Shown one piece after another: positions 47,680-59,266 of a DNA stretch of 64,000 nucleotides (its first letter is position 1; every line of letters begins with the position of its first letter). A program made the translations under genes and the position numbers. The DNA comes from Cupriavidus sp. WGlv3 (GTDB lineage: Bacteria > Pseudomonadota > Gammaproteobacteria > Burkholderiales > Burkholderiaceae), in NCBI RefSeq assembly GCF_023952475.1, contig NZ_JALHRX010000003.1:248001-312000 (forward strand). The letters run 5' to 3'. A model generated the notes under the pieces. It searched no databases. It was not told the origin of the DNA and was given only the letters and a program-made list of their open reading frames with translations.

Positions 47680-48240
47680 TCATGGCGGTTCGGAGGATTC
47701 CGCCGCCTCGCAGTCGGTGTCGCGGCCGGGTGTGCAGAGTCGGATACGTCCCTGCGCGCCCAGCCTGACTTGCCGCTGCTCGCCACGGCAGCCAAGTGTG
47801 AAGGTGGCGGCCTGGAAACCGCCCTGCTCAGAACGAGAGTATCCCACAGGCAGGAATTTCAGCACATTGGCACCGCGCACCGTTTGCCGAAGGGTCACGG
47901 ACAGGCACGGCGTGCCGGGCTCGACCACGGACAGCACCACCGGCTGGTCAGGGCTGGCGCCTGCCGTCACCAGTTGCCAGCCCGGACTCAGCGTGGACTC
48001 GCCCGGCAGCGGCTGCAGCGTCACCTCGACGCGGCGCGACAGCGCGGTGGCGCGTGCCAGCGCCAGCGACATCGCCAGCCGGTCGGCCGCAAGCGTGACC
48101 TGCTGGCGCGCGAGCATGCCGCTGAACAGCGGATAGGCCGCGGCCGTGAATACGCTGAGAATGGCCAGGCCGGCGACCAGTTCGACCAGCGTCAGTCCAC
48201 CCGTGTGTCGAGGCCTGCCGGCATTCCATGGCATGTCCAT
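47680..48240 (-). CDS. fimT: Type IV pseudopilin, FimT/GspH type (cluster 1)
   Basis: A 186-aa prepilin-like protein. The class III signal is RPRHTGG^LTLVEL (cleavage after G15, methylated L16, E at +5), followed by a hydrophobic helix. The body ends in cysteines near the C-terminus. GspH/FimT proteins are minor pilins that prime type IV pilus assembly. It is the last gene of the minus-strand minor-pilin operon 52383-47680, and lies 51 bp upstream of ribD. An ATG two residues later is possible. The second fimT in the window is at 52909. Confidence 0.85.
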   Translation of the reverse strand: MDMPWNAGRPRHTGGLTLVELVAGLAILSVFTAAAYPLFSGMLARQQVTLAADRLAMSLALARATALSRRVEVTLQPLPGESTLSPGWQLVTAGASPDQPVVLSVVEPGTPCLSVTLRQTVRGANVLKFLPVGYSRSEQGGFQAATFTLGCRGEQRQVRLGAQGRIRLCTPGRDTDCEAAESSEPP

Positions 48241-48247
48241 CGGGGCC

Positions 48248-48703
48248 TCAGCAATGGGGTGGCAACGGCTGCGGCACCGCGCCGTCGGGCAGCGCCAGCC
48301 ACTGACCGGTGCTGCGCAGGATCAGCGTCCCGCATTCGGGATCCGCGGCTTGCGGCACCGCACGGAGTTCGACACAGGTATCCAACGGGACTTGCGGACA
48401 GGCGCCGGCGCTTACCAGATGGCGCACCGGGCCATTGGCTGGCACGCGCAGCGGCCACTGGCCGGCAACCATGTCGGCCCCTGGCGCGGCGGCAAAGGTC
48501 ACCGCCTCGAGCGCATGCCGCTCGAGTTGCAGCATCGCGCCGGCCAGCGCGGCGCGGGCCTGCGCGCGCCAGCCGCGCGCCAGATGGCGGTGCCACGCGG
48601 GCACGGCCATGGCCGCGAGGATGGCCAGCACGGCCAGCGCGGCCACCAGCTCGATCAGGCTGAAGCCGCGCTTGCGCCGGCGGGCAGATGCCCGGCTCAT
48701 CAT
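48248..48703 (-). CDS. Type IV minor pilin, PilE-like (cluster 1)
   Basis: A 151-aa prepilin. The leader MMSRASARRRKRG is followed by G^FSLIELVAALAVLAILAAMAV, the canonical N-terminal helix with E at +5. A pair of cysteines (ACPQVPLDTC) and a late C are in the globular part, which is short. It is probably a PilE-type minor pilin. The ATG at 48703 overlaps the upstream stop by ATGA; a 37-residue longer frame lies inside the PilY1-like gene. It ends 7 bp before fimT. Confidence 0.85.
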   Translation of the reverse strand: MMSRASARRRKRGFSLIELVAALAVLAILAAMAVPAWHRHLARGWRAQARAALAGAMLQLERHALEAVTFAAAPGADMVAGQWPLRVPANGPVRHLVSAGACPQVPLDTCVELRAVPQAADPECGTLILRSTGQWLALPDGAVPQPLPPHC

Positions 48704-50535
48704 GGCGCCTCCTCCCTGGCCGGGCCGACGATCTCGCGCCAGCGCAGGCGCCCGGTGCGGCGCGTGGCGAGCGTTTGTGCGACCTGCGTGACGGCGTTGC
48801 CCGTGGCGGACCACACCGAGAGGGAAAACGCCTGGCGTCCGGCGCCGCCCGGTTGCGCGGGCGTGCCGGGCAATTCGGTGCGGGTCGCGAACACGCTGGC
48901 CCCGGGCGCCAGCAACTGGCCGGTGGCGACCAGCAGGCGCTCGCCGAAGCTGCGCTGCACGACGGATTCCCCGGTCGCCGCCAGCACCAGGTAACTGCGT
49001 TGCGCGCCATCGGGTGTGCGGGTCACGAACAGCAGGTAGCCGGGGAAGACCGGTTCGATCTCGACCAGCTGTTCGCCGGCATGGGGCAGGGTCAGGCGCC
49101 AGCCGGGATCCTGCGCGCCGCCGGGCGTCGCGCGCAGGATGTGGCCGTTGTCTGCCGCCTGGGTCGTGACCTGCCGGGGCGCGCGCGCCGTGACGCTGCG
49201 TGTGGCAAGGTCATCGGGCACCGCGGCCAGCTCGTTGCCGGCGCCGTAGATCACCACGGGCGCGGTCGGGGATCCGAGCAGTACGGGGGCTTCTTCCCTG
49301 GCCGGTTGCGCGGACACCTGCATCCGGTACAGGCAGGCCGCGGCAGGGCTTGCGCCGGCCGGCGGCGCGTCGGCAAGCGGGAAGCGCCAGAGCTGGCCGG
49401 CATTGTCGGTGGCATAGGCCGCGAGCGCGGCACCGGTGAGATCGGGCAGCACGCTGACCGCCACCAGCTGGCCGGCCGCAGGGCCGCCGAGGCAGTCGCG
49501 CTCCGGCAAGGTCAAGGTGCGGATGGCGTACTGGCCGGCCCATGCGGCGCTGGCGGGCTTGTCCAGTGGCAGCAAGGCAAGTCCGGCGCGGCCAGCGCCC
49601 GCCTCGCCACCGGTGCCTGCATCGAGGATCACGACCGCGAACCAGCGCAAACCATCCGGACCACGGATGCCCGCCGCGCGTACCGGCCCGCGTCCGGCCA
49701 GCGGCAGGGCGTCGGTCGCGGCGATCTCCCAGATCGGCACGAACGGCATCTGTCCGTCGGGATCGGTAACGTCGAGCACGAAGGCTGCCGCGGGGTTGCC
49801 GGCGGCGGCATTGGCCGGGACGCCGCATAGCAGCACCGTGCGCCATTCGCCGCGCAGGGTGACGTCCTGCGCTTCCGGGCGCGGGCAGGGCGGCGGCACC
49901 GTTGGTGTTCCCGGGGCCGGCATGGCGATGGCATAGGGCAGCAGCGCGCCCGGCAGGTAAGCGGCACGCTCCTCGCCGGTCGCGGCATCGAACGCATGCA
50001 GCAGGCCGTCGACGGTGCCATGCCAGGCCACATGCGTGCGCAGGCTGTAGCGCAGGCGAAAGCCGGCGTGGCCGGCTTTGCCGGGCGACCATGCGGGCGG
50101 CGCCACCACCCGCACGCGTGCGCCCGCCGCATTGCCCAGGCGGGTATCGCGCGGGCGCAGGCCGGGGCGGGTCTGGTCGCCGTGCAGCCAGTCCACCGAG
50201 GCGCTGTCCCCAATGTGCAAGGCCTCGGTTACTGCATCCCATTGCAGCGGAATGGCGCGCGCCGTCTCGCCGTCCGGTGCCGCATACGTGAATATCCGCC
50301 GCGACGGCACGGTCCGGCGGTCGAGGCGGTCGCCGGCCTCCCACAGGTCCGGCGAGGGCGCCTGCGTCAGGTCCTGCCAGCCGATGGCGAACAGGCGCCC
50401 GGTCCACGGATACGCGCCGTTCGCGGTCCGGTAGGCCAGTGGCAGCCGGCCCGCTTCGGACCCGGCGGCATGGCAGGCCGCAGCTACGACAAGGACAAGA
50501 CAGACGAGGGTGCAGCGGACGGCGAGGCGGGTCAT
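48700..50535 (-). CDS. Truncated PilY1-like protein (cluster 1)
   Basis: A 611-aa secreted protein resembling only the C-terminal beta-propeller half of PilY1. A signal peptide (LVCLVLVVAAACHA) is followed by a short N-terminal part with no von Willebrand A or lectin-like domain, then propeller repeats such as WHGTVDGLLHAFDAATG and TDNAGQLWRF. The calcium-binding loop that should be DxDxDG has become D365-L-T-G-A-A-L-A-A, so it has lost its ligands. A lipobox-like VAAAC at about residue 20 is possible. It is coupled to neighbours on both sides (ATGA). It may be a non-adhesive tip or assembly factor. The longer open frame to 50874 lies in the pilX gene and is rejected. Confidence 0.8.
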   Translation of the reverse strand: MTRLAVRCTLVCLVLVVAAACHAAGSEAGRLPLAYRTANGAYPWTGRLFAIGWQDLTQAPSPDLWEAGDRLDRRTVPSRRIFTYAAPDGETARAIPLQWDAVTEALHIGDSASVDWLHGDQTRPGLRPRDTRLGNAAGARVRVVAPPAWSPGKAGHAGFRLRYSLRTHVAWHGTVDGLLHAFDAATGEERAAYLPGALLPYAIAMPAPGTPTVPPPCPRPEAQDVTLRGEWRTVLLCGVPANAAAGNPAAAFVLDVTDPDGQMPFVPIWEIAATDALPLAGRGPVRAAGIRGPDGLRWFAVVILDAGTGGEAGAGRAGLALLPLDKPASAAWAGQYAIRTLTLPERDCLGGPAAGQLVAVSVLPDLTGAALAAYATDNAGQLWRFPLADAPPAGASPAAACLYRMQVSAQPAREEAPVLLGSPTAPVVIYGAGNELAAVPDDLATRSVTARAPRQVTTQAADNGHILRATPGGAQDPGWRLTLPHAGEQLVEIEPVFPGYLLFVTRTPDGAQRSYLVLAATGESVVQRSFGERLLVATGQLLAPGASVFATRTELPGTPAQPGGAGRQAFSLSVWSATGNAVTQVAQTLATRRTGRLRWREIVGPAREEAP

Positions 50536-51125
50536 GGCTGGATCACGCTTTGCAAAAGAGCGCGCACGGCCCGGGTGCGGCCGAAGCCGACCGCGGTCAC
50601 CCGCATCCGCGGTGCCGGGGCGAGTGCGAAGGCGGGGTCCGGCGCACTGTAGCCGGCCGGCGCTTCGTCCAGGATTTCCGCGACATAGCGCGGCGGCTCC
50701 TGCGCGGCTGCGTCGGCCGGCAGAGCAGCGCCGGTAAATCGGCCCAGCGGCACGCCGATGACGTCGACCTCGGCATCGGCCCGCAGCCATGGCTGCCACA
50801 CCGGTGGCCCGGCCAATGCGGGGCGGCAGAGGCCCGCCTGCTGGCCGCTGCCGCAGCGACCCGGGGCCGGCCAAAGAGCCAGGCGGTCCTGCAGGTTCGG
50901 CGATGCCGCGGCCGCCAGCAGCTCGGCCTCGCCATCGCGCAGGGCGGCCTCGGCGGCGCGGAACGCGAGTTCGCGCTCATGCTGCATGACGGCAAGCTGC
51001 CGGCCGGACAGCAGCATCTGCAGCGTGGCGGCCGCGATCAGCACCACCATCAGCAGCAGGGTGGCGCACAGCAGCAGCGTGACGGCGCCGGCCTGGCACG
51101 GGCGTGGCAGGCGGGGCGCTAGCAC
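50532..51125 (-). CDS. Type IV minor pilin, PilX-like (cluster 1)
   Basis: A 197-aa PilX-type protein with a leader MLAPRLPRPCQAG, then ^AVTLLLCATLLLMVVLIA. Like other PilX proteins it lacks the +5 glutamate. RELAFRAAEAALRDGEAEL after the helix is a PilX feature. A GTG start at 51125 overlaps the pilW stop by 7 bp. PilX is a minor pilin linked to pilus priming and cell aggregation. It is the third gene of the minus-strand operon. Confidence 0.82.
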   Translation of the reverse strand: MLAPRLPRPCQAGAVTLLLCATLLLMVVLIAAATLQMLLSGRQLAVMQHERELAFRAAEAALRDGEAELLAAAASPNLQDRLALWPAPGRCGSGQQAGLCRPALAGPPVWQPWLRADAEVDVIGVPLGRFTGAALPADAAAQEPPRYVAEILDEAPAGYSAPDPAFALAPAPRMRVTAVGFGRTRAVRALLQSVIQP

Positions 51126-52066
51126 AGTGTCTCCTCGCAGTGCGGCGCATTGCGCAGCCGCACCGTGGCGGCGAACACGCGACGCGCGGTGCCTGCCTGC
51201 GCCGGCGTAGCGGGCGGCAGGTCCGCCGCCGCGGTGCCGGGCAGCGACAGCGTGTCCGTAGCGCTACCCCGGACCGGCGTGGCCGAGCCCGGCCGGTCGC
51301 CGCGCACGGCGAGGGCGATCTGGACCGCCACCACGCGTTGCCAGGCGGCATCGCCCGGCGCGGGGATCGCCGATGCCGTTTCGAAGCGATCGGGGCGGCC
51401 GTCCTGGTCCAGGTCCAACCCATAGCGCAATTGCAGCGATTCCACCCCGCGCACCAGCGCGCCCGAGGTCCAGCCGCTGCCGTCGATCAGGCCATTGCGG
51501 CGGGCCGGGTAACGGCACAGCAGTTGCGGCACGCCGTCGGCGCCAGCCGCCACATAGAGCAGGTTCTCGGCGACATAGCTGGCGGCTGGTGCGGTGGCCG
51601 CCGCGCCTGTTGCAATTGCCGCGACCGCATAGCCGCTGCAATCGGTCATGGTGTCGTCCGGCTGCGCCGGCGCGGCGGGCAGGCCGCTGCCGCTGAAGCG
51701 GACCAGCAGCGCGTCGCTTTGGCCGACCGCGGCCCTGGCGCAGGCGGGTACGGCGGCGATGGCGGGCTGGCCGCAATTGTCCGCGCCGCTGACCGCGGGC
51801 AGGGCAGTGGCGGCCATGCCGGAGGCGGGCTCGCCCGGCCAGCCGGACTGCCGTAGCAGCGTGGACAGAATGGCCAGCGCGCGCTGGCCGCGTTCCTCGA
51901 TCAGCACGCGGTCGGTGGCGGCGAGGTAGGCCGCATGCGCGTTGAGGAAGGCGGCGCCGGCCGCGGCGGAGGCGATCAGGCCCAGCGTCATGCCGACCAT
52001 CAATTCGACCAGCGAAAAGCCGCGCGGGTGGGTCCGCAAGCTGCGGGCGTCAATGAGCCGGTTCAT
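51119..52066 (-). CDS. Type IV minor pilin, PilW-like (cluster 1)
   Basis: A 315-aa minor pilin. The leader RSLRTHPRG is followed by ^FSLVELMVGMTLGLIASAAAGAAF, the PilW-type helix with the +5 glutamate. The body is long, with DNCG and C near the end (CEETLC), and LRYGLDLDQDG that might bind a metal. The ATG at 52066 overlaps the pilV-like stop in ATGA. PilW is needed for stable pili in Pseudomonas. The paralog in cluster 2 is shorter (255 aa). Confidence 0.85.
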   Translation of the reverse strand: MNRLIDARSLRTHPRGFSLVELMVGMTLGLIASAAAGAAFLNAHAAYLAATDRVLIEERGQRALAILSTLLRQSGWPGEPASGMAATALPAVSGADNCGQPAIAAVPACARAAVGQSDALLVRFSGSGLPAAPAQPDDTMTDCSGYAVAAIATGAAATAPAASYVAENLLYVAAGADGVPQLLCRYPARRNGLIDGSGWTSGALVRGVESLQLRYGLDLDQDGRPDRFETASAIPAPGDAAWQRVVAVQIALAVRGDRPGSATPVRGSATDTLSLPGTAAADLPPATPAQAGTARRVFAATVRLRNAPHCEETLC

Positions 52067-52383
52067 GGTCGCGCCCATGTTGATCCGGCCGGCAGGCAGC
52101 CGCCGGCATCCGGCATCGGCACGATGGCGGCGACCGCGGTGGCCAAGGGCGCTGCACAGCGGCCCAGTTCGGCATCGTCGGCCGCGCTGCGCGTGGCCTG
52201 TGCCAGGCGCTCCAGCTGGCGCAGCCAGCCCAGCCCGGTGGTGCCGACCACCGCCATCGGCAGCAGTCCGGCAAGGACGATCGACAGGGCGCCAAGCGCC
52301 TCGATCAGCGCGTAGGCGCGCTGGACCCTGGGTTGCGGGGTAGTTGGCGGCGGCGATCGACGCCGGACGGCGGATGAGGACAT
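52063..52383 (-). CDS. Short PilV-like minor pilin with Ala at -1 (cluster 1)
   Basis: A 106-aa PilV-type protein, first gene of the minus-strand operon. The hydrophobic helix YALIEALGALSIVLAGLLPMAV carries a glutamate at +5 (E28), but the residue before the cleavage site is Ala (QRA^YALIE), not the nearly invariant Gly. The globular part is about half as long as in the cluster 2 PilV (187 aa), and ends in a CLPAG motif. It may process slowly, or the frame start may be different. The gene stands divergent from cluster 2. Confidence 0.7.
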   Translation of the reverse strand: MSSSAVRRRSPPPTTPQPRVQRAYALIEALGALSIVLAGLLPMAVVGTTGLGWLRQLERLAQATRSAADDAELGRCAAPLATAVAAIVPMPDAGGCLPAGSTWARP

Positions 52384-52908
52384 GGCATGGGTTGTGAAGG
52401 CGATGGGCCCAGATTAGCCAGCCCTCCGAACCGCGAACGTGCCGAAACGTAAAGCAGGGAGATCCGCACCATTGTGTTAAGCGCGGGCCTGCTGCGCCCG
52501 ACCGTCACGCTTGCCCGCGCGCAGTTGCGGCGGCCCAACGCCTTGCCGACTGGCCGCCAAACGCTGCGCGATGCAATTGACAGGAATTATCAAATTCCCC
52601 ACTATCGCGGGTGTTGCAAAGTCGTAACGATTCCGCTATTCGATCCGCGATTCGCGGCATCCCGTTGCCGGCCGCTGAGGCGGCAGCGAGGCATAGAACA
52701 AGAATTTTCGGGTGCGGGCTGGCCTTTCCGCCGTCAGAGCGGAATGCCTTGCCCAGATAACAAAGCCATTTATCGGGGGTCAACATGCATCGGGTCATCC
52801 TGGCAGTTCCTTGTCCATCGGCGGCGGCACCTCTGCCCGCGCGCTGACATGCCGGCGACGGTTCGCCTTCGCGATACCGCGCCTCCCCGCCTTCACCACG
52901 ATGTGGCC
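52384..52908. other. Divergent intergenic region between the two minor-pilin operons
   Basis: About 525 bp between the cluster 1 pilV and the cluster 2 fimT. On the plus strand TTGACA at 52577-52582 is followed at once by an inverted repeat GGAATT-ATCA-AATTCC. I see no clear protein gene. Its composition is lower in G+C near 52560-52660 than the flanks. Promoters of both operons must lie here. Confidence 0.5.
52577..52598 (+). promoter_or_regulatory. -35 box with overlapping inverted repeat upstream of cluster 2 pilins
   Basis: TTGACA (52577-52582) directly followed by GGAATT-ATCA-AATTCC (52583-52598), a perfect 6-bp-arm inverted repeat. The repeat occupies the spacer where a repressor or activator could act. 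The -10 box is weak (CACTAT at 52600-52605). Confidence 0.35.
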
Positions 52909-53526
52909 ATGCCCGGCCCGGGCCTGCCTGTGCGCGTGGCTCGCAGCGGCAGCGGCAGCGGCGCTGGCCCCGGGCCGCGCGCATTGCGCCGGCGCTGCCG
53001 CGGGCTGACGCTGGTCGAGCTGATGGCGGTGGTGGTGATGGTGGCGATCCTGGCCGCGATCGGCACGCCTTCGTTCGTCTCGCTGCTGCGCACCAGCCGT
53101 GTCGACAGCGAGATCCAGTCGATGGTCGGCACCCTGCAGCTCGCGCGCAGCGAGGCCGTCAAGCGCGGCTTGCCGGTCAGCGTGTGCCCGTCCGCCAATG
53201 GCACCGCCTGCCTGGGCGCCGGCAACTGGGCGGGCGGCTGGATCGCCTTCGTCGACCGCAATGGGTCGGGAACGGTGGACGCGGCACCGCCGGCCGACGA
53301 GGTGCTGCACTACCGCGCCGGCTGGTCCGCCACCGACACCTTCACCACGCCCGCCGGCGCGGCTTTCCTGAGCTACAACCGCGACGGCTTCGCCGTGCTG
53401 CCTGGCGGCGCGCTGACGATGACGCTGCGCACCAGCCCGGTGGCCGACGACGCCACGCGCTGCATCGCCATCAATATTGCCGGCCGGCAGACCATCCAGC
53501 GCGCCGGGGAGGGCGCATGCCAGTGA
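52909..53526 (+). CDS. fimT: Type IV pseudopilin, FimT/GspH type (cluster 2)
   Basis: A 205-aa FimT-type minor pilin. A rather long basic leader ends in RRRCRG^LTLVELMAVVVMVAILAAI, with the expected E at +5. QLARSEAVKRGLPVSVCPSANG is a strong GspH/FimT motif, followed by WIAFVDRNGSG and C-terminal cysteine. It probably primes pilus assembly. The start is unsure: ATG 52909 gives a 29-residue leader, and ATG 52849 adds 20 residues; the open frame reaches 52474. It overlaps the next gene (GGGGAGGG ribosome site inside its end). Confidence 0.82.
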   Translation: MPGPGLPVRVARSGSGSGAGPGPRALRRRCRGLTLVELMAVVVMVAILAAIGTPSFVSLLRTSRVDSEIQSMVGTLQLARSEAVKRGLPVSVCPSANGTACLGAGNWAGGWIAFVDRNGSGTVDAAPPADEVLHYRAGWSATDTFTTPAGAAFLSYNRDGFAVLPGGALTMTLRTSPVADDATRCIAINIAGRQTIQRAGEGACQ

Positions 53527-54080
53527 CCGGACGGAACTGCAGTCTGCACCGGCGCCGCATGGCGTGCGGACTTTCGCTGATCGAGGTGCTGATCACGCTG
53601 GTGATCACCTCGGTGGGGCTGCTCGGCCTGGCCAAGATGCAGGCGGCAGCGCTGGCCAATACGCAGATCGCGCGCGGGCGTGCGCTGGTGGCGCTGCAAC
53701 TGGAAAGCCTGGCCGCGGCGATGCACGGCAACCGCGGCTTCTGGGCGGCCGGCACGGCGCCGCAGACGTTCACGCTGTCCGGCACGACGGTCACCGACAG
53801 CACCGGCGCGCTCAGCGCCGCCGCGCCGGACTGCGCCAGCGTGGCGTGCACGCCGATCCAGATGGCCGCCTACGACGTGCAGCACTGGGCCGCGGATATG
53901 GCGGCCCATTTTCCCACCTATGCGGCCACGGTCAACTGCAGCAACGACATCAGCCGCCCGATCCGCTGCAGCCTGACCGCCACCTGGAGCGAGCGCTACC
54001 TGGCCTACAACCAGACCACCGCGGCGCAGACTTCGGCCATGGCCGCCACGCAAAGCCTGACGCTGCACGTCCAGCCATGA
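53517..54080 (+). CDS. pilV: Type IV minor pilin PilV (cluster 2)
   Basis: A 187-aa minor pilin. The leader MPVTGRNCSLHRRRMACG is followed by ^LSLIEVLITLVITSVGLLGLAKMQ, the typical PilV helix with E at +5 and the GLAKMQA extension. Two cysteine-bearing loops follow (DCASVACT and CSNDISRPIRC). It overlaps fimT by 10 bp and pilW by 4 bp (ATGA), so the operon is tightly coupled. Compared with the cluster 1 version it is full length and has the usual Gly at the cleavage site. Confidence 0.88.
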   Translation: MPVTGRNCSLHRRRMACGLSLIEVLITLVITSVGLLGLAKMQAAALANTQIARGRALVALQLESLAAAMHGNRGFWAAGTAPQTFTLSGTTVTDSTGALSAAAPDCASVACTPIQMAAYDVQHWAADMAAHFPTYAATVNCSNDISRPIRCSLTATWSERYLAYNQTTAAQTSAMAATQSLTLHVQP

Positions 54081-54844
54081 GAGCGATCCTTCGAATCCCG
54101 CCCCGCATGCCTCGCCGCATGCCTCGGCGCAGGTATCGATGCGCGCAGGCCGGTGTCTCGCTGGTCGAGGTGCTGGTGGCCATGGTGATCGCGCTGTTCA
54201 TGCTGGCGGCGCTGATGACAGTGTTCCTCAACCTGCGCGGCACCGTGCGCGACCAGGAGCGGCTGGCGGCGCTGCAGGACAGCGAGCGCCTGGTGATGAC
54301 GATGCTGGCCAACACGGTGCAGTCGGCCGGGTACTTCCCCGATCCGCTGACCCAGGTGGCGGCGGAGGCGTTGCCGGCGCTGGCCGGCAATGCCTTTGGC
54401 GATTTCGTCGCGGGGCAGGCCATCGTCGGCCAGTCCGGCGCCGATGGTGCCAGCGATACGCTGACGGCGCGCTTTGTCACCGCCAGCGGCGACGGCATCA
54501 TGAATTGCCAGGGCGCCGCCAATACCTCGGGCGCCAGTGTCGCCTACCTCAACACCTTTGCGGTCAATGCCGCCAACGAGCTGACCTGCGCGGTCAACGG
54601 CGGCGCGCCGGTGCCGCTGGCCGGCGGCATCACCGCGCTGCGGGTGCGCTACGGCACCGACACCAGCAACGGCGGCAACGTCGACACCTACCTCAGCGCC
54701 AGCGCGGTCACCGCCGGCGCACTGTGGGGCCAGGTGCGCAGTGCGCGCGTGTCGCTGACCTTTGCCAATCCCTTTGCCGGTCAGCCCGGCCAGCCGGCCA
54801 CGCTCGGCTGGACCCAGACCATCGGCCTGATGAACCGCCCATGA
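54077..54844 (+). CDS. pilW: Type IV minor pilin PilW (cluster 2)
   Basis: A 255-aa PilW-type protein. The 26-residue arginine-rich leader ends CAQAG^VSLVEVLVAMVIALFMLAALM, with the glutamate at +5. The next stretch (LRGTVRDQERLAALQDSERLVMTMLANTVQSAGYF) is highly typical of PilW. C-terminal region with FANPFAGQPG ends in the IGLMNRP type. The ATG overlaps the pilV stop and the stop overlaps pilX. It belongs to the minor-pilin set delivering PilY1. Confidence 0.9.
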   Translation: MRAILRIPPRMPRRMPRRRYRCAQAGVSLVEVLVAMVIALFMLAALMTVFLNLRGTVRDQERLAALQDSERLVMTMLANTVQSAGYFPDPLTQVAAEALPALAGNAFGDFVAGQAIVGQSGADGASDTLTARFVTASGDGIMNCQGAANTSGASVAYLNTFAVNAANELTCAVNGGAPVPLAGGITALRVRYGTDTSNGGNVDTYLSASAVTAGALWGQVRSARVSLTFANPFAGQPGQPATLGWTQTIGLMNRP

Positions 54845-55428
54845 CCCGCGCCCAGCCAGACCGCTTCCGCGCCGGCGCCGCGCCGCGCGGCTATGTCCTG
54901 ATCATCGGCCTGCTGTTCCTGCTGATCCTGTCGCTGCTGTCGGTGACGATGTTCCGCGGCTTCGGCCTGCAGGAGAAGATCGCCGGCAACACCCGCGAGA
55001 AGCAGCGCGCGTTCGAGGCCGCGCAGGGCGCGCTGCAGTACGGCGAGTGGTGGCTGGGGCAGGGCAACGGCTCCGCCGGCGCGGCCTGCAACAGCGTGAT
55101 CGACGCCAACGATCCGGCCAACCTGCAGGTCTGCGCCAACGCGCTGGCAGACCCGGCCAGCCTGCCGTGGACGCCGGCACGGGCGGATTACCTGCCGCCG
55201 TCGATGCGCCTTGCGACGGCCGGCAGCCCCGGCGGCCTGAACGGCGCCGACATCAACTACGCGCGCGCGCCCAGCCTCTACATCCACTATCTGGGTCTGT
55301 CGCCGGATGGCCTGTCGATGCTGTTCCGCGTGACCGGCGCCGGCTATGGCGGCAGCGACGGCACCGCCGCGGTGGTGCAGAGCACTTACCAGCTTGGCGC
55401 GGGCACCAAGGACCTCGGGAAAGAGTGA
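54841..55428 (+). CDS. pilX: Type IV minor pilin PilX (cluster 2)
   Basis: A 195-aa PilX-type protein. The leader MTRAQPDRFRAGAAPRG is followed by ^YVLIIGLLFLLILSLLSVTMFRGFGLQEKIAGNTREK; PilX proteins have no +5 glutamate, and QEKIAGNTREKQRAFEAAQGAL is the diagnostic motif. The stop overlaps the PilY1 start (TGATG), and the ATG overlaps the PilW stop. It likely forms part of the tip complex. Confidence 0.9.
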   Translation: MTRAQPDRFRAGAAPRGYVLIIGLLFLLILSLLSVTMFRGFGLQEKIAGNTREKQRAFEAAQGALQYGEWWLGQGNGSAGAACNSVIDANDPANLQVCANALADPASLPWTPARADYLPPSMRLATAGSPGGLNGADINYARAPSLYIHYLGLSPDGLSMLFRVTGAGYGGSDGTAAVVQSTYQLGAGTKDLGKE

Positions 55429-58400
55429 TGAGCCAACCTCCACGCCTCGCCGGCATTGCCGCCGCCGTCAGCACCGCCGTCAACATGCTGCTGGCAGGGC
55501 CGGCGCACGCCCTGGTGATCCAGGACAACCTGAACGGGGCGTCGTCTTACTATGACTGGGTGGCGCTGAATGGCGCGTGCCTGACCGCAGGCAACGGCAC
55601 CGGCTCGATTCCGGGCTGCGCCACGTCGAGCTTCACCTACTACCGGGACCGCAACTCGAAACTGGTCGGAGGCGCCAGCGGGAGCGTGCCGGATGCTGTC
55701 GGCTACGGCGCGCTGCGGCTGACCAACGGCGACACGGCCGAGGGCGCCAACGGCGACAACCAGACCGGCGCGGTGGTGTCCCGCTTCACCTTCGGCATGC
55801 AGGAAGGGTTGCAAGTCACGTTCTCCACCGTCACCTACGGCGGCGACAACCTGCGCGGCACCGGCGCCGACGGCATCAGCTTCTATCTCGCCGACGGCAG
55901 CAGGAGCCCGACTGTGGGCGGGCTGGGCGGCAGCCTGGGCTACAGCTGCTCCAACGTCAATGCCGCGTACGACGGCGTGGCCGGGGGCTATATCGGCATC
56001 GGCATCGACGAGTTCGGCAACTTCTCGAACAAGGCCGACAACACCGACTCGGGCCCGGCGTTCCAGGCCAACCGCATCAGCGTGCGCGGCTCGGGCGATA
56101 CCAACTGGGCCGGCCTGCGCGCCGCCTATCCGGCCTACTACCCCGACAACCTGAGCGCCAGCAAGCGCGCGCAGGCCGTGCAGAACACCTGTGCGCGCGG
56201 CTATGTGCAGGACTGGAGCAGCGGCAAGGACGGCGGCGACGTCAGGGGACGGCGGCTGGCCTACAACTACCGCATGCTCGGCATCAGCGACCTGCCCGAC
56301 AAGATCGCCAACCAGCAGGCGGTGTCGAGGCCGACGCGCGCCAAAGGCATCCCGATTGTCTATTCGCTCAAGCTGACGCAGAACGGGCTGCTGAGCATGT
56401 CCTACAGCTACAACGGCGGCGCAGCCACGCCGGTGATCACCGACCAGGACATCACGCAGGCCAACGGGCCGGTGCCGGCGGCGCTGCGCTTCGGCTTCGC
56501 CGCGGGCACCGGCGGCGGCAGCAACGTGCACGAGATCACCTGCTTCAAGGCCGAGCCGGTGGGCCAGTCCAGCAGCTCGGCCGGCACCAACGTGCAGCAG
56601 TCGGCGCGGGTCGAGGCGGGCGCGCAGGTGTACCTGGCCTACTACCATCCGACCAACTGGTGGGGCGAGCTGAGCGCGCAGAACCTGCTCTACGATCCCG
56701 CCACCGATTCGGTGTCGATTGCCACCGTGGCCAACTGGAACGCGCATTGCACGCTGACCGGCGGCCATTGCGCGGCGACCGGCACTACGGTGGTGGCGCA
56801 GGCGCCCGACAGCCGCAAGATCCTGACCTGGAGCGGCAGCACCGGCATCCCGCTGCGCTGGGATGCCAACCTGCCCGACGCGCACAAGGCGAAGCTGACC
56901 GCGGGCGACGCCGCGCCGAGCGGCGACCGTCTCGACTACCTGCGCGGGAACCGCAGCAAGGAGCTGACCGCGGCCGGCGCCGGGCTGTTCCGCAAGCGCA
57001 CCGGCGTGCTGGGCGACATCATCGATGCCAGCCCGGCCTGGGTCGGCGCGCCGTCATCGCCGTACAGCGGGCCGTGGACCGATGCCTTGTACAAGCGCGC
57101 CAGCCCGCCCGAGCCTGCCGGCAGCTATGATGCCTTCCGGCAAGCCAGGGCTCAGCGGCTCAACGTGGTCTATGTCGGCGCCAACGACGGGCTGCTGCAC
57201 GGCTTCCGCTCCGGCTACTACAACGCGGCGGGCGCCTTTGTCGGCAACGACGCCGGCAAGCCCAACGACGGCCGCGAGGTGCTGGCCTACATGCCCGGCG
57301 CGGTGCTCGACACCATCCAGTCGTCGAATGCGGCGCTCGCCTACAGTTCGCCGCAATACGTGCACAACCTGTTCGTCGATGCCACGCCAGGCACCGGCGA
57401 TCTCTACTACGCCGGCGCCTGGCATACCTGGCTGGTCGGCGGGCTGGGGCCGGGCGCGAACCGCGGCGGCCCGCTCGCCAGCAAGACCGCGACCGCGACC
57501 GGCGGCGCGCTGTACGCGCTCGACGTGACCGATCCGGAGCGCTTCGGCGATACCCCGGCGGCGGCCAGTGCCACGGTGATCGGCGAGTGGAACCACACGC
57601 TGCAGTGCACTGGCGACAGCGCGTGCGGCGACAACCTCGGCAACACCTATGGCACGCCCGTGATCCGCCGCCTGCACAACGGCCAGTGGGCGGTGCTGTT
57701 CGGCAACGGCCTGGGCAGCAAGAGCGGCTCGGCCGGCCTGTTCATCATGCTGGTCGACCCGGCCGACGGCGCGCGCAGCTTCCGCTATCTCGGCACCGGC
57801 TACGGGCCGCAGCAGGATCCGGCCGGCGCCAACAGCAAGAACGGCATTGCCTTTGTCACGCCGGCCGACCTCGACGGCGACCACATCACCGACTACGTCT
57901 ACGCCGGCGACGTGTTCGGCAACCTGTGGCGCTTCGACCTGACCTCGGACAATCCGGACCACTGGCGCGCCGCCAGCCGGCCGCTGATGCAGACCGGCGG
58001 CAAGCCGATCTCCACCCGGGTGGCGGTAGGCTCGGTGCCCGGCAACGGAACCGGCGCCGCGGCGATGCCGCGCGTGGTGGTGGCGTTCGGCACCGGCCGC
58101 CGGCTGGAGCAGACGCAGGGCAGCGAAGCGGTGTTCGAGCCCGGCGGGCAGGGACTGTATGGCGTGTGGGACTGGGACATGGCGGGATGGAACGCGGTGG
58201 CCGGCGCGCAGGCCCGCTATGCGTCGCTGGCCAGCGCCACCCGGCCCCTTTCCGCCGCCAACCTGACCCAGCAGTCGATTACCGCAGAAGGGCGCGCGGC
58301 CGGCAGCACGGTGACGGTGCGCACGGTCAGCGCCGGCAAGGTGTGCTGGCAGGGCTCGACCGCCTGCGCCAGCGGCAACAACAAGTACGGCTGGCAGCTG

Positions 58401-58802
58401 CCGCTGCCGTCGGCCACGCGCGAGCAGGTGATCTACAACCCGGTGATCGCCTACGGCATGGTGATCGTCAATACCACCATCCCGCCCAGTTCGGCGCTGT
58501 CGCAGGCGCTGTCGTGCAATGCCGAGGTGCCGTCGGGCTTCACCATGGGCGTGTCGATGGGCTCGGGCGGCGCGGCCGCGCAGTCGTTCTTCAGCAGCAC
58601 CAACAGCAGCACCTTCCCGCTGCTGAACAACGGCATCGTCAGCGGCATCGGCCTGAGCGGCACCGGCACGCCGTCGGTGGTGACGGCGAAGAAGCGGCCT
58701 TACCTGGTGCAGCAGACCGTTGGCGGCAGCGGCGCCATCACGCAGATCAACCCCGGCGCCAACGGTGCCGGCGCCCGCCTCAACTGGATTCGCCTGCGCT
58801 GA
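55428..58802 (+). CDS. pilY1: PilY1 pilus-tip protein with N-terminal L-type lectin-like domain
   Basis: A 1124-aa secreted pilus-tip adhesin. A signal peptide ends about AHA (residue 28). Residues ~30-400 resemble an L-type (legume-type) lectin: TGADGISFYLADG (145-157), GGLGGSLGYS (164-173) and GYIGIGIDEFGNFS (187-200) with metal-type D194/E195/N198. This replaces the usual N-terminal von Willebrand A domain. The C-terminal ~600 residues form the PilY1 beta-propeller: GANDGLLHGF (~583) and the calcium loop DLDGDHITD at 814-822, followed by YVYAGDVFGNLWRFD. PilY1 binds calcium to control pilus retraction and adhesion. Here the tip may bind sugars. The ATG overlaps the pilX stop. Confidence 0.88.
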   Translation: MSQPPRLAGIAAAVSTAVNMLLAGPAHALVIQDNLNGASSYYDWVALNGACLTAGNGTGSIPGCATSSFTYYRDRNSKLVGGASGSVPDAVGYGALRLTNGDTAEGANGDNQTGAVVSRFTFGMQEGLQVTFSTVTYGGDNLRGTGADGISFYLADGSRSPTVGGLGGSLGYSCSNVNAAYDGVAGGYIGIGIDEFGNFSNKADNTDSGPAFQANRISVRGSGDTNWAGLRAAYPAYYPDNLSASKRAQAVQNTCARGYVQDWSSGKDGGDVRGRRLAYNYRMLGISDLPDKIANQQAVSRPTRAKGIPIVYSLKLTQNGLLSMSYSYNGGAATPVITDQDITQANGPVPAALRFGFAAGTGGGSNVHEITCFKAEPVGQSSSSAGTNVQQSARVEAGAQVYLAYYHPTNWWGELSAQNLLYDPATDSVSIATVANWNAHCTLTGGHCAATGTTVVAQAPDSRKILTWSGSTGIPLRWDANLPDAHKAKLTAGDAAPSGDRLDYLRGNRSKELTAAGAGLFRKRTGVLGDIIDASPAWVGAPSSPYSGPWTDALYKRASPPEPAGSYDAFRQARAQRLNVVYVGANDGLLHGFRSGYYNAAGAFVGNDAGKPNDGREVLAYMPGAVLDTIQSSNAALAYSSPQYVHNLFVDATPGTGDLYYAGAWHTWLVGGLGPGANRGGPLASKTATATGGALYALDVTDPERFGDTPAAASATVIGEWNHTLQCTGDSACGDNLGNTYGTPVIRRLHNGQWAVLFGNGLGSKSGSAGLFIMLVDPADGARSFRYLGTGYGPQQDPAGANSKNGIAFVTPADLDGDHITDYVYAGDVFGNLWRFDLTSDNPDHWRAASRPLMQTGGKPISTRVAVGSVPGNGTGAAAMPRVVVAFGTGRRLEQTQGSEAVFEPGGQGLYGVWDWDMAGWNAVAGAQARYASLASATRPLSAANLTQQSITAEGRAAGSTVTVRTVSAGKVCWQGSTACASGNNKYGWQLPLPSATREQVIYNPVIAYGMVIVNTTIPPSSALSQALSCNAEVPSGFTMGVSMGSGGAAAQSFFSSTNSSTFPLLNNGIVSGIGLSGTGTPSVVTAKKRPYLVQQTVGGSGAITQINPGANGAGARLNWIRLR

Positions 58803-58807
58803 CCACC

Positions 58808-59266
58808 ATGAACCTGCCTGCCTTTCTCCAAGCGCGGCGCGCTGCCGCGGGCTTCACGCTGATCGAGCTGATGATCACGGTGGCGATCGCCGCGATCCTG
58901 GCCGCGATCGCCTATCCGTCCTACACGGAGCATGTGCGCAAGTCGCGCCGCACCGACGCCAAGACCGCCTTGCTGGATCTGGCGGCGCGCCAGGAGCGGC
59001 TGTTCAGCACGCAGAACGTCTATGGCGGCACGCCCGCCGCGCTGGGATATGCCGGGCCGGCCTTTCCGGTGGAAATCCGGTCAGGCGGCCAGGCGTACTA
59101 CCAGTTGACGGTGGTGGCGGGCAATCCGGCCACCAGCTATACCGCGACCGCGGCGCCGGTCGGCGCGCAGGCGGGAGACGACTGCGGCAGCTACACCATC
59201 AACCACCTGGGGCTGCAGGGGAACACGGGGATGCGCGCCGGCGTGGCGTCGGCGCAGTGCTGGTAG
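58808..59266 (+). CDS. pilE: Type IV minor pilin PilE (cluster 2)
   Basis: A 152-aa PilE-type prepilin. The leader MNLPAFLQARRAAAG is followed by ^FTLIELMITVAIAAILAAIAYPSY, the canonical pilin helix with E at +5. RKSRRTDAKTALLDLAARQERLFSTQNVY is the minor PilE signature, and two cysteines close the C-terminal D-region (DDCGS and the final CW). It is 5 bp after pilY1, ends the plus-strand operon and stops 15 bp from the convergent nrdR. Confidence 0.92.
   Translation: MNLPAFLQARRAAAGFTLIELMITVAIAAILAAIAYPSYTEHVRKSRRTDAKTALLDLAARQERLFSTQNVYGGTPAALGYAGPAFPVEIRSGGQAYYQLTVVAGNPATSYTATAAPVGAQAGDDCGSYTINHLGLQGNTGMRAGVASAQCW

Follow-up and report, generated by a model that had tools for sequence, protein, structure and literature searches.

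What would the tip of a type IV pilus hold if its PilY1 protein were capped by a lectin? The question is raised by a 64,000-nucleotide stretch of DNA from Cupriavidus sp. WGlv3 (assembly GCF_023952475.1, contig NZ_JALHRX010000003.1, positions 248,001 to 312,000 of the forward strand), here called the window. It contains an open frame for a lectin-type PilY1 of 1124 amino acids at 55428..58802 on the + strand (ATG 55428, stop 58802), identified as pilY1 by its matches to Pfam and to the Pseudomonas aeruginosa PilY1 structure 3hx6. The original prediction, made from the letters of this DNA, placed an L-type lectin at the N-terminus of this protein instead of a von Willebrand A (vWA) domain. The analysis described here suggests that the protein is probably an adhesin at the tip of a type IVa pilus, with an L-type lectin as the outermost module, holding glycans.

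The N-terminal domain is the natural starting point. A signal peptide is predicted, by eye from the sequence, at residues 1-27 (55428..55508 (+)), with its end near AHA. It is followed by a domain of ~350 residues (28-378; 55509..56561 (+)), assigned as an L-type lectin from Pfam, profile and model evidence. The three motifs on which the lectin proposal had relied are all present, at residues 146-157 (GADGISFYLADG), 164-173 (GGLGGSLGYS) and 191-200 (IGIDEFGNFS), and the Pfam and profile matches raise them above chance. Within the N-terminal 391 residues, Pfam recognises one family, PF18483 (Lectin_L-type_dom; E 8.3e-8). A profile made from alignment A1, which comprises 47 rows (six PilY1 lectins and 41 Bacteroidota proteins), retrieved pea lectin from the PDB with E 1.4e-7; 75 sequences were found in all, and each of the 60 listed is named as a legume lectin or agglutinin. 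Of 35 lectin-PilY1 N-domains, each searched on its own, 31 match PF18483, three Lectin_leg-like and two Lectin_legB (E ≤ 0.01 in each case). The window PilY1 has no match at E ≤ 1 to either vWA or DUF4114 (PF13448), and its lectin domain contains no strict motif resembling a metal-ion-dependent adhesion site (MIDAS). Set against both kinds of family, the sequence has a significant lectin match and no vWA match at its N-terminus.

Structure prediction leads to the same fold. Two AlphaFold2 models were made, model 1 from alignment A1 and model 2 from alignment A4, and both are strand-rich, with a predicted template modelling score (pTM) of 0.64. A Foldseek search of the PDB with model 1 gave a best E of 1.8e-8, and the 50 matches listed comprise legume lectins, ERGIC-53 and Emp46p, together with an archaeal legume-lectin domain and a single entry titled just 'a carbohydrate-binding domain'. 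In VIA-align, model 1 aligns with peanut lectin (Z 17.9, root-mean-square deviation 2.9, 212 residues aligned) and model 2 with FRIL lectin (Z 17.7, root-mean-square deviation 3.0, 205 residues aligned); all 50 matches listed for each model are plant lectins. The list for model 2 is no independent proof, because alignments A1 and A4 share sequences. Taken together, the models and profiles confirm the predicted lectin, an L-type (legume-like) beta-sandwich that spans residues ~28-378.

The residues that would form the sugar site are also kept. A phmmer alignment to pea lectin places the loop A Asp (D148, 55869..55871), the loop B Gly (G168, 55929..55931) and the loop C Asn (N198, 56019..56021; all on the + strand) on D81, G99 and N125 respectively, which we take to be the sugar-binding trio of legume lectins. 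All three are identical in 35/35 lectin-PilY1 rows and in 47/47 rows of alignment A1, 41 of which are from Bacteroidota. D194, which aligns to the pea calcium ligand D121, is invariant across the same rows (35/35 and 47/47). The loop before HE aligns to pea lectin without gaps. In legume lectins the length of this loop tracks the ligand class, and the gapless alignment hints at mannose/glucose-type ligands. Pfam, profile, models and kept sugar-site residues thus bear out the original placement of an L-type lectin at this N-terminus.

Within this conserved framework, the PilY1 lectins carry features of their own. Five cysteines are near-invariant: C51, C64, C174 and C372 in 35/35 rows, and C255 in 34/35. 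None of the five is Cys in the 41 Bacteroidota rows, where the C64 and C255 columns are gapped, and the PilY1 lectins differ from those rows by insertions as well. The conserved cysteines span positions 55578-56543 of the window, an odd number inside one domain.

Several observations weigh against a lectin fold with a working sugar site. Mean predicted local distance difference test (pLDDT) values are low in both models (52.5 and 54.8) and reach their minimum over the first ~65 residues and most of the stretch at model residues ~170-277; the trimmed alignment used for the second model hardly raised them. The PF18483 score of 32.8 bits lies below the Pfam curated value of 78.3, and a single-sequence PDB search with the N-domain ranked an unrelated protein first (E 0.18), ahead of pea lectin (E 0.19). 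In the putative metal site, the second calcium Asp (pea D129) has no residue-for-residue equivalent in lectin-PilY1, and the manganese Glu (pea E119) is replaced by Gly192 in 35/35 rows. Moreover, a conserved fold and site, as predicted from sequences and models, would fall short of proving ligand binding. Nearby D204 (34/35 rows) may serve as the fourth calcium ligand. Animal L-type lectins likewise have no manganese site. With Gly192 in every row, the domain is classed as an L-type lectin outside the plant legume subfamily.

The low pLDDT and the Pfam match below its curated cut-off could also be taken to mean that the domain is a divergent vWA or an unrelated fold whose motifs are coincidental. 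The chance of this appears negligible, since the two models, the profile search and the conserved residues agree on an L-type lectin and no vWA is matched; a strict MIDAS-like motif occurs in 1/35 lectin rows, and there it belongs to the linker (position 341 of 351 in L120). A vWA fold, DUF4114 and chance motifs were each rejected as candidates on the basis of Pfam, VIA-align, the PDB profile and site conservation. An enzyme is another conceivable occupant of the pilus tip. The concanavalin A-like (ConA-like) superfamily includes glucanases (PMC9934059, in an extract that refers to lectin/glucanase), so the domain might be a hydrolase or lyase that cuts polysaccharide there. We regard this as very improbable: the conserved residues are those of a lectin site, and no enzyme is found among the 50 Foldseek matches listed for model 1 or the 50 VIA-align matches listed for each model, all of them lectins or carbohydrate-binding domains, although the lack of enzymes in these limited lists is weak evidence.

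Alternatively, the lectin fold might serve as a structural spacer, a mechanosensor or a protein-binding head without binding sugar. L-type folds are able to lose sugar binding, and the five cysteines that set the PilY1 lectins apart from the 41 Bacteroidota rows suggest an extra PilY1-specific role, for example in mechanical stability or force sensing. However, loss of sugar binding would let the trio drift, and its invariance in 35/35 PilY1 lectins, as well as in the 19 aligned of 20 non-PilY1 frames described below, speaks against such a loss. A role without sugar binding is accordingly judged unlikely, but is not far-fetched.

The C-terminal part of the protein is, by sequence comparison, true PilY1. 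The beta-propeller family PF05567 is matched at residues 528-929 (57009..58214 (+)) with E 1.6e-35 and 123.3 bits, against a curated cut-off of 28.1, and the P. aeruginosa structure 3hx6 aligns with residues 496-1120 (E 9.6e-43). The calcium loop DLDGDHITD (D814-D822; 57867..57893 (+)) is in register with the loop of 3hx6 and is predicted to bind calcium. The description of this half as a typical PilY1 propeller with its calcium loop is upheld by these matches. In NCBIfam, PilC_Neiss scored 50.8 bits, short of its cut-off of 350; the second match was at chance level.

To what extent does the N-terminus depart from that of other PilY1 proteins? The comparison set consists of 40 non-lectin PilY1 chosen from among the top-scoring PF05567 matches listed for the same order, with a few frames cut at contig or region ends. 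None of the 40 has a lectin match (E ≤ 1e-3), whereas the region of the window protein that follows its lectin domain (residues ~381-500) gives weak matches to 9/40. A strict MIDAS-like motif is present in the first 300 residues of 16/40, and Pfam at E ≤ 0.01 recognises VWA_2 in two and PA14 in one of the 40 N-terminal regions. A looser MIDAS pattern matches 22/40, yet it says little because 13/35 lectin rows match it too. The original prediction had also stated that most described PilY1 proteins carry a vWA-like domain. This overstatement is not supported by the figure of one third of the described proteins given in a 2026 survey (PMC13190605; this and the other papers are cited from extracts), and by the 16/40 and 2/40 counted here. 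A vWA is common among PilY1 but not the rule, in agreement with that survey. According to the same survey, vWFA and DUF4114 are the two N-terminal domains identified in described PilY1, and there are no others (PMC13190605).

The fusion of lectin and PilY1 is found well beyond the window. In a sample of 399 genomes of the same order (presumably Burkholderiales), drawn by the tool, PF05567 is present in 257 and the lectin domain in 30, representing 19 of 158 genera. Nineteen of the 30 have a lectin-PilY1 fusion, called when one frame has BLAST matches to both the window lectin and the window propeller; nine have only a DUF6701 protein, one (G262) a DUF11-repeat protein, and one (G452) the lectin without a recognised partner. 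Among 398 genomes of the phylum, an A2 profile matched 16, including one more fusion outside the order (L246), and a further lectin-PilY1 (L017) comes from a Gammaproteobacteria bacterium bin. Within the genus, 17/60 Cupriavidus genomes carry the fusion. The total of 36 lectin-PilY1 proteins (17 from Cupriavidus, 17 from others of the order and two others) rules out a one-off fusion or an assembly artefact. When eight of the 36 were scanned at full length with Pfam (window, L122, L129, L131, L017, L136, L124 and L246), PF05567 scored above its cut-off in 8/8.

The genes around the fusion are conserved as well. Subtracting four second copies of named loci from the 38 fusion frames leaves 34 that are distinct. 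In a strict count within the fetched stretch, 30 of these 34 have fimT, pilV, pilW, pilX and pilE-like genes all present around them. The four that are short of the full set are L014 and L153, which lie on short contigs, L136, which has weak matches, and L135, which has none. Three named species, C. alkaliphilus, C. necator and C. neocaledonicus, have loci that encode the N-terminal 391 residues of the window PilY1 at 95-96% identity.

A propeller tree indicates how often the fusion arose. Among 92 sequences (34 lectin, 58 others), the lectin types form one branch of length 0.78, with a Shimodaira-Hasegawa-like approximate likelihood-ratio test (SH-aLRT) value of 100, and the lectin state requires one change, compared with a shuffled mean of 27.7. 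The tree is a quick maximum-likelihood tree of hand-chosen rows, with SH-aLRT but without bootstrap, and two partial lectin rows were omitted. Because a single change suffices, the idea that the lectin was swapped repeatedly between propellers was rejected. In a search of the 399 genomes with the window propeller, complete-frame PilY1 of at least 46% identity occur in 19, and 19/19 are of the lectin type; the next three matches (38-44% identity) are not. One further propeller match of 58% (G394) comes from a frame of 378 residues at the end of a contig, where the N-terminus is out of view. Lectin and propeller travel together and therefore represent a PilY1 subfamily, with no recent single-domain swap; as judged from these sequences, that subfamily is stable. 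The same tree contains four short PilY-like proteins (L163, L171, L172 and L173), whose branch is very long, at 3.05 changes per column, and sits beside either the lectin cluster or another PilY1 cluster.

In the window, pilY1 stands fifth in a minor-pilin operon on the + strand, in the order fimT/fimU-like, pilV-like, pilW, pilX, pilY1, pilE-like. The open frame at 52474..53526 contains a fimT/fimU-like minor pilin (GspH, N_methyl), with the gene start internal to the frame. It is followed by a pilV-like minor pilin at 53517..54080 (N_methyl, operon position), by pilW at 54077..54844 (PF16074, N_methyl), and by pilX at 54841..55428 (PF14341, PF13681), the stop of which shares one base with the ATG of pilY1. 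Downstream of pilY1, at 58805..59266, lies a pilE-like minor pilin (PF16732 E 3.7e-23, N_methyl) of the ComP_DUS family, which is named for a DNA-uptake pilin; nrdR is found beyond it on the opposite strand. A second minor-pilin cluster is located upstream, at 47680-52383 (-), back to back with the lectin cluster. Its short PilY-like gene (48700-50430, 576 aa; PF05567 E 0.0012, below the cut-off) encodes a propeller-like PilY without any N-terminal module, and a weak PF16732 match, also below the cut-off, lies at 48248-48814 (-).

If the protein is a glycan-holding tip adhesin, its action can be outlined as follows. By analogy with other PilY1, the propeller half would dock on the minor-pilin complex encoded directly upstream (FimT/PilV/PilW/PilX) and would prime pilus assembly. 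The lectin half would be displayed at the very tip, as the first part of the pilus to meet a surface. A glycan could be held there in a shallow, calcium-dependent site composed of D148, G168 and N198, and retraction would then draw the cell to the sugar-bearing surface. In extracts concerning Myxococcus xanthus, a model gives the order PilA-FimU-PilW-PilV-PilX-PilY1, with the N-terminal domain of PilY1 as the ultimate tip (PMC13190605), and the N-terminal domain of PilY1.1 has a part in exopolysaccharide (EPS)-dependent twitching, its removal or inactivation changing how the cells twitch (PMC9109919). For the window protein, the ligand is expected to be a polysaccharide from the matrix that the cell itself makes or from microbes, fungi or plants nearby, and less so one from an animal host. 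Cupriavidus is largely environmental. The host glycans named in the original prediction are a guess, and the target could equally be the polysaccharide of the cell itself or of a neighbour.

Several known systems resemble the protein in part. P. aeruginosa PilY1 (3hx6) and other vWA-type PilY1 are alike in the C-terminal propeller, the calcium loop and the minor-pilin operon, but have an N-terminal vWA, according to extracts of PMC8179133 and PMC9109919, where the window PilY1 has an L-type lectin. M. xanthus PilY1.1 (DUF4114) is alike in combining the propeller with a proposed sugar-binding N-terminal domain, in that case with EPS-dependent twitching; the extract likens its DUF4114 to PA-IIL-type lectins (PMC9109919), whereas the window PilY1 is without a DUF4114 match. 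In Streptococcus sanguinis, PilC likewise equips a type IV pilus with a lectin from the ConA-like superfamily, and its ConA-like module is reported, in the text extracted from PMC9934059, to bind sialylated glycans and heparin probes. PilC is a modular pilin from a Gram-positive organism, whereas the carrier in the window is a PilY1 and no pilin; it has no match to N_methyl, the type IV pilin N-terminus with its class III signal. With legume lectins, ERGIC-53/Emp46p and the archaeal legume-lectin domain (7elv), the window domain has the fold and the Asp/Gly/Asn site in common. It differs from them in the missing manganese Glu, in its extra cysteines and insertions, and in being carried by PilY1.

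These comparisons also bear on novelty. InterPro contains 68 PilC/PilY1 architectures, with many modules, including vWA, that are common to modular pilins, as described in an extract of PMC8179133 that does not go through them singly; the L-type lectin PilY1 may already be among the 68. No description of an L-type lectin PilY1 was found in the titles, abstract openings and extracts available from open-licence literature, and the titles and abstract openings of work on Cupriavidus PilY1 contain nothing on a lectin type. Since PilY1 proteins of modular build and a streptococcal pilin with a lectin are already known, the L-type lectin on PilY1 is a new variant.

This lectin module also occurs, site residues included, on DUF6701 proteins, some of them in pilin gene clusters. 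Among 18 non-PilY1 lectin-domain frames scanned, 15 end in DUF6701 (L137-L146, L240-L243 and L245), which forms the C-terminal part where the window PilY1 has its propeller. The other three are L127 with no family, L147 with DUF11 repeats and L247 with He_PIG. A profile search of 20 non-PilY1 frames aligned 19, with Asp/Gly/Asn kept in 19/19; L143 gave no row. Prepilin-like genes are located upstream of the lectin gene in L240-L244, and 4/4 of those checked are prepilins. A PF20419 search returned nothing in the genome of the window or in the control genomes, and is uninformative because the controls were equally silent. The lectin domain also occurs in Hymenobacter and other Bacteroidota (L018-L058), in frames mostly of 590-2300 residues.

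We take MshQ, of the mannose-sensitive haemagglutinin (MSHA) pili, to be a DUF6701 protein. In the extracts cited, MshQ is a putative adhesin of the mannose-sensitive MSHA pilus (PMC7096442) and is listed among components of unknown function (PMC9815625); the literature search found nothing on a lectin in MshQ. Two unrelated tip-protein families, PilY1 of type IVa pili and DUF6701/MshQ-like proteins of MSHA-like pili, might use one L-type lectin module as a plug-in head for gripping sugars. This generalisation is a tentative one, possible but still rather doubtful. If true, sugar recognition at pilus tips would be widespread and exchangeable, and the lectin of DUF6701 proteins could explain why MSHA pili are 'mannose-sensitive'.

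Within Cupriavidus, the type of tip gene beside nrdR varies. Across 60 genomes, the PilY1 located within 20 kb of nrdR is of the lectin type in nine and of another type in 31; 19 have no match and one, G012 (54% complete), has no nrdR hit. These counts are based on PF05567 matches of at least 104 bits (51 of the 90 listed, the 39 weaker ones being omitted), and 'no match' means that none of this strength lies within 20 kb on the same contig. Two of the omitted weaker matches are near nrdR, one in G081 and the other the short PilY-like gene of G083. The lectin type lies away from nrdR or on another contig in eight genomes, five of which have another type at nrdR; the lectin gene of G073 is on a 7.2-kb contig without nrdR. 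The presence of different PilY1 types beside nrdR means that tip types differ between species at one site. As read from these sequences, the whole cassette varies at a single chromosomal site that is used for pilus-tip genes across Cupriavidus.

What a type IV pilus adheres to is set by the N-terminal modules of PilY1. For an entire clade of PilY1, an L-type lectin with an intact site would define a ligand class open to direct testing, and the laboratory species C. necator belongs to the genus. The variation at the nrdR site, in turn, provides a natural set for studying how pilus-tip specificity evolves.

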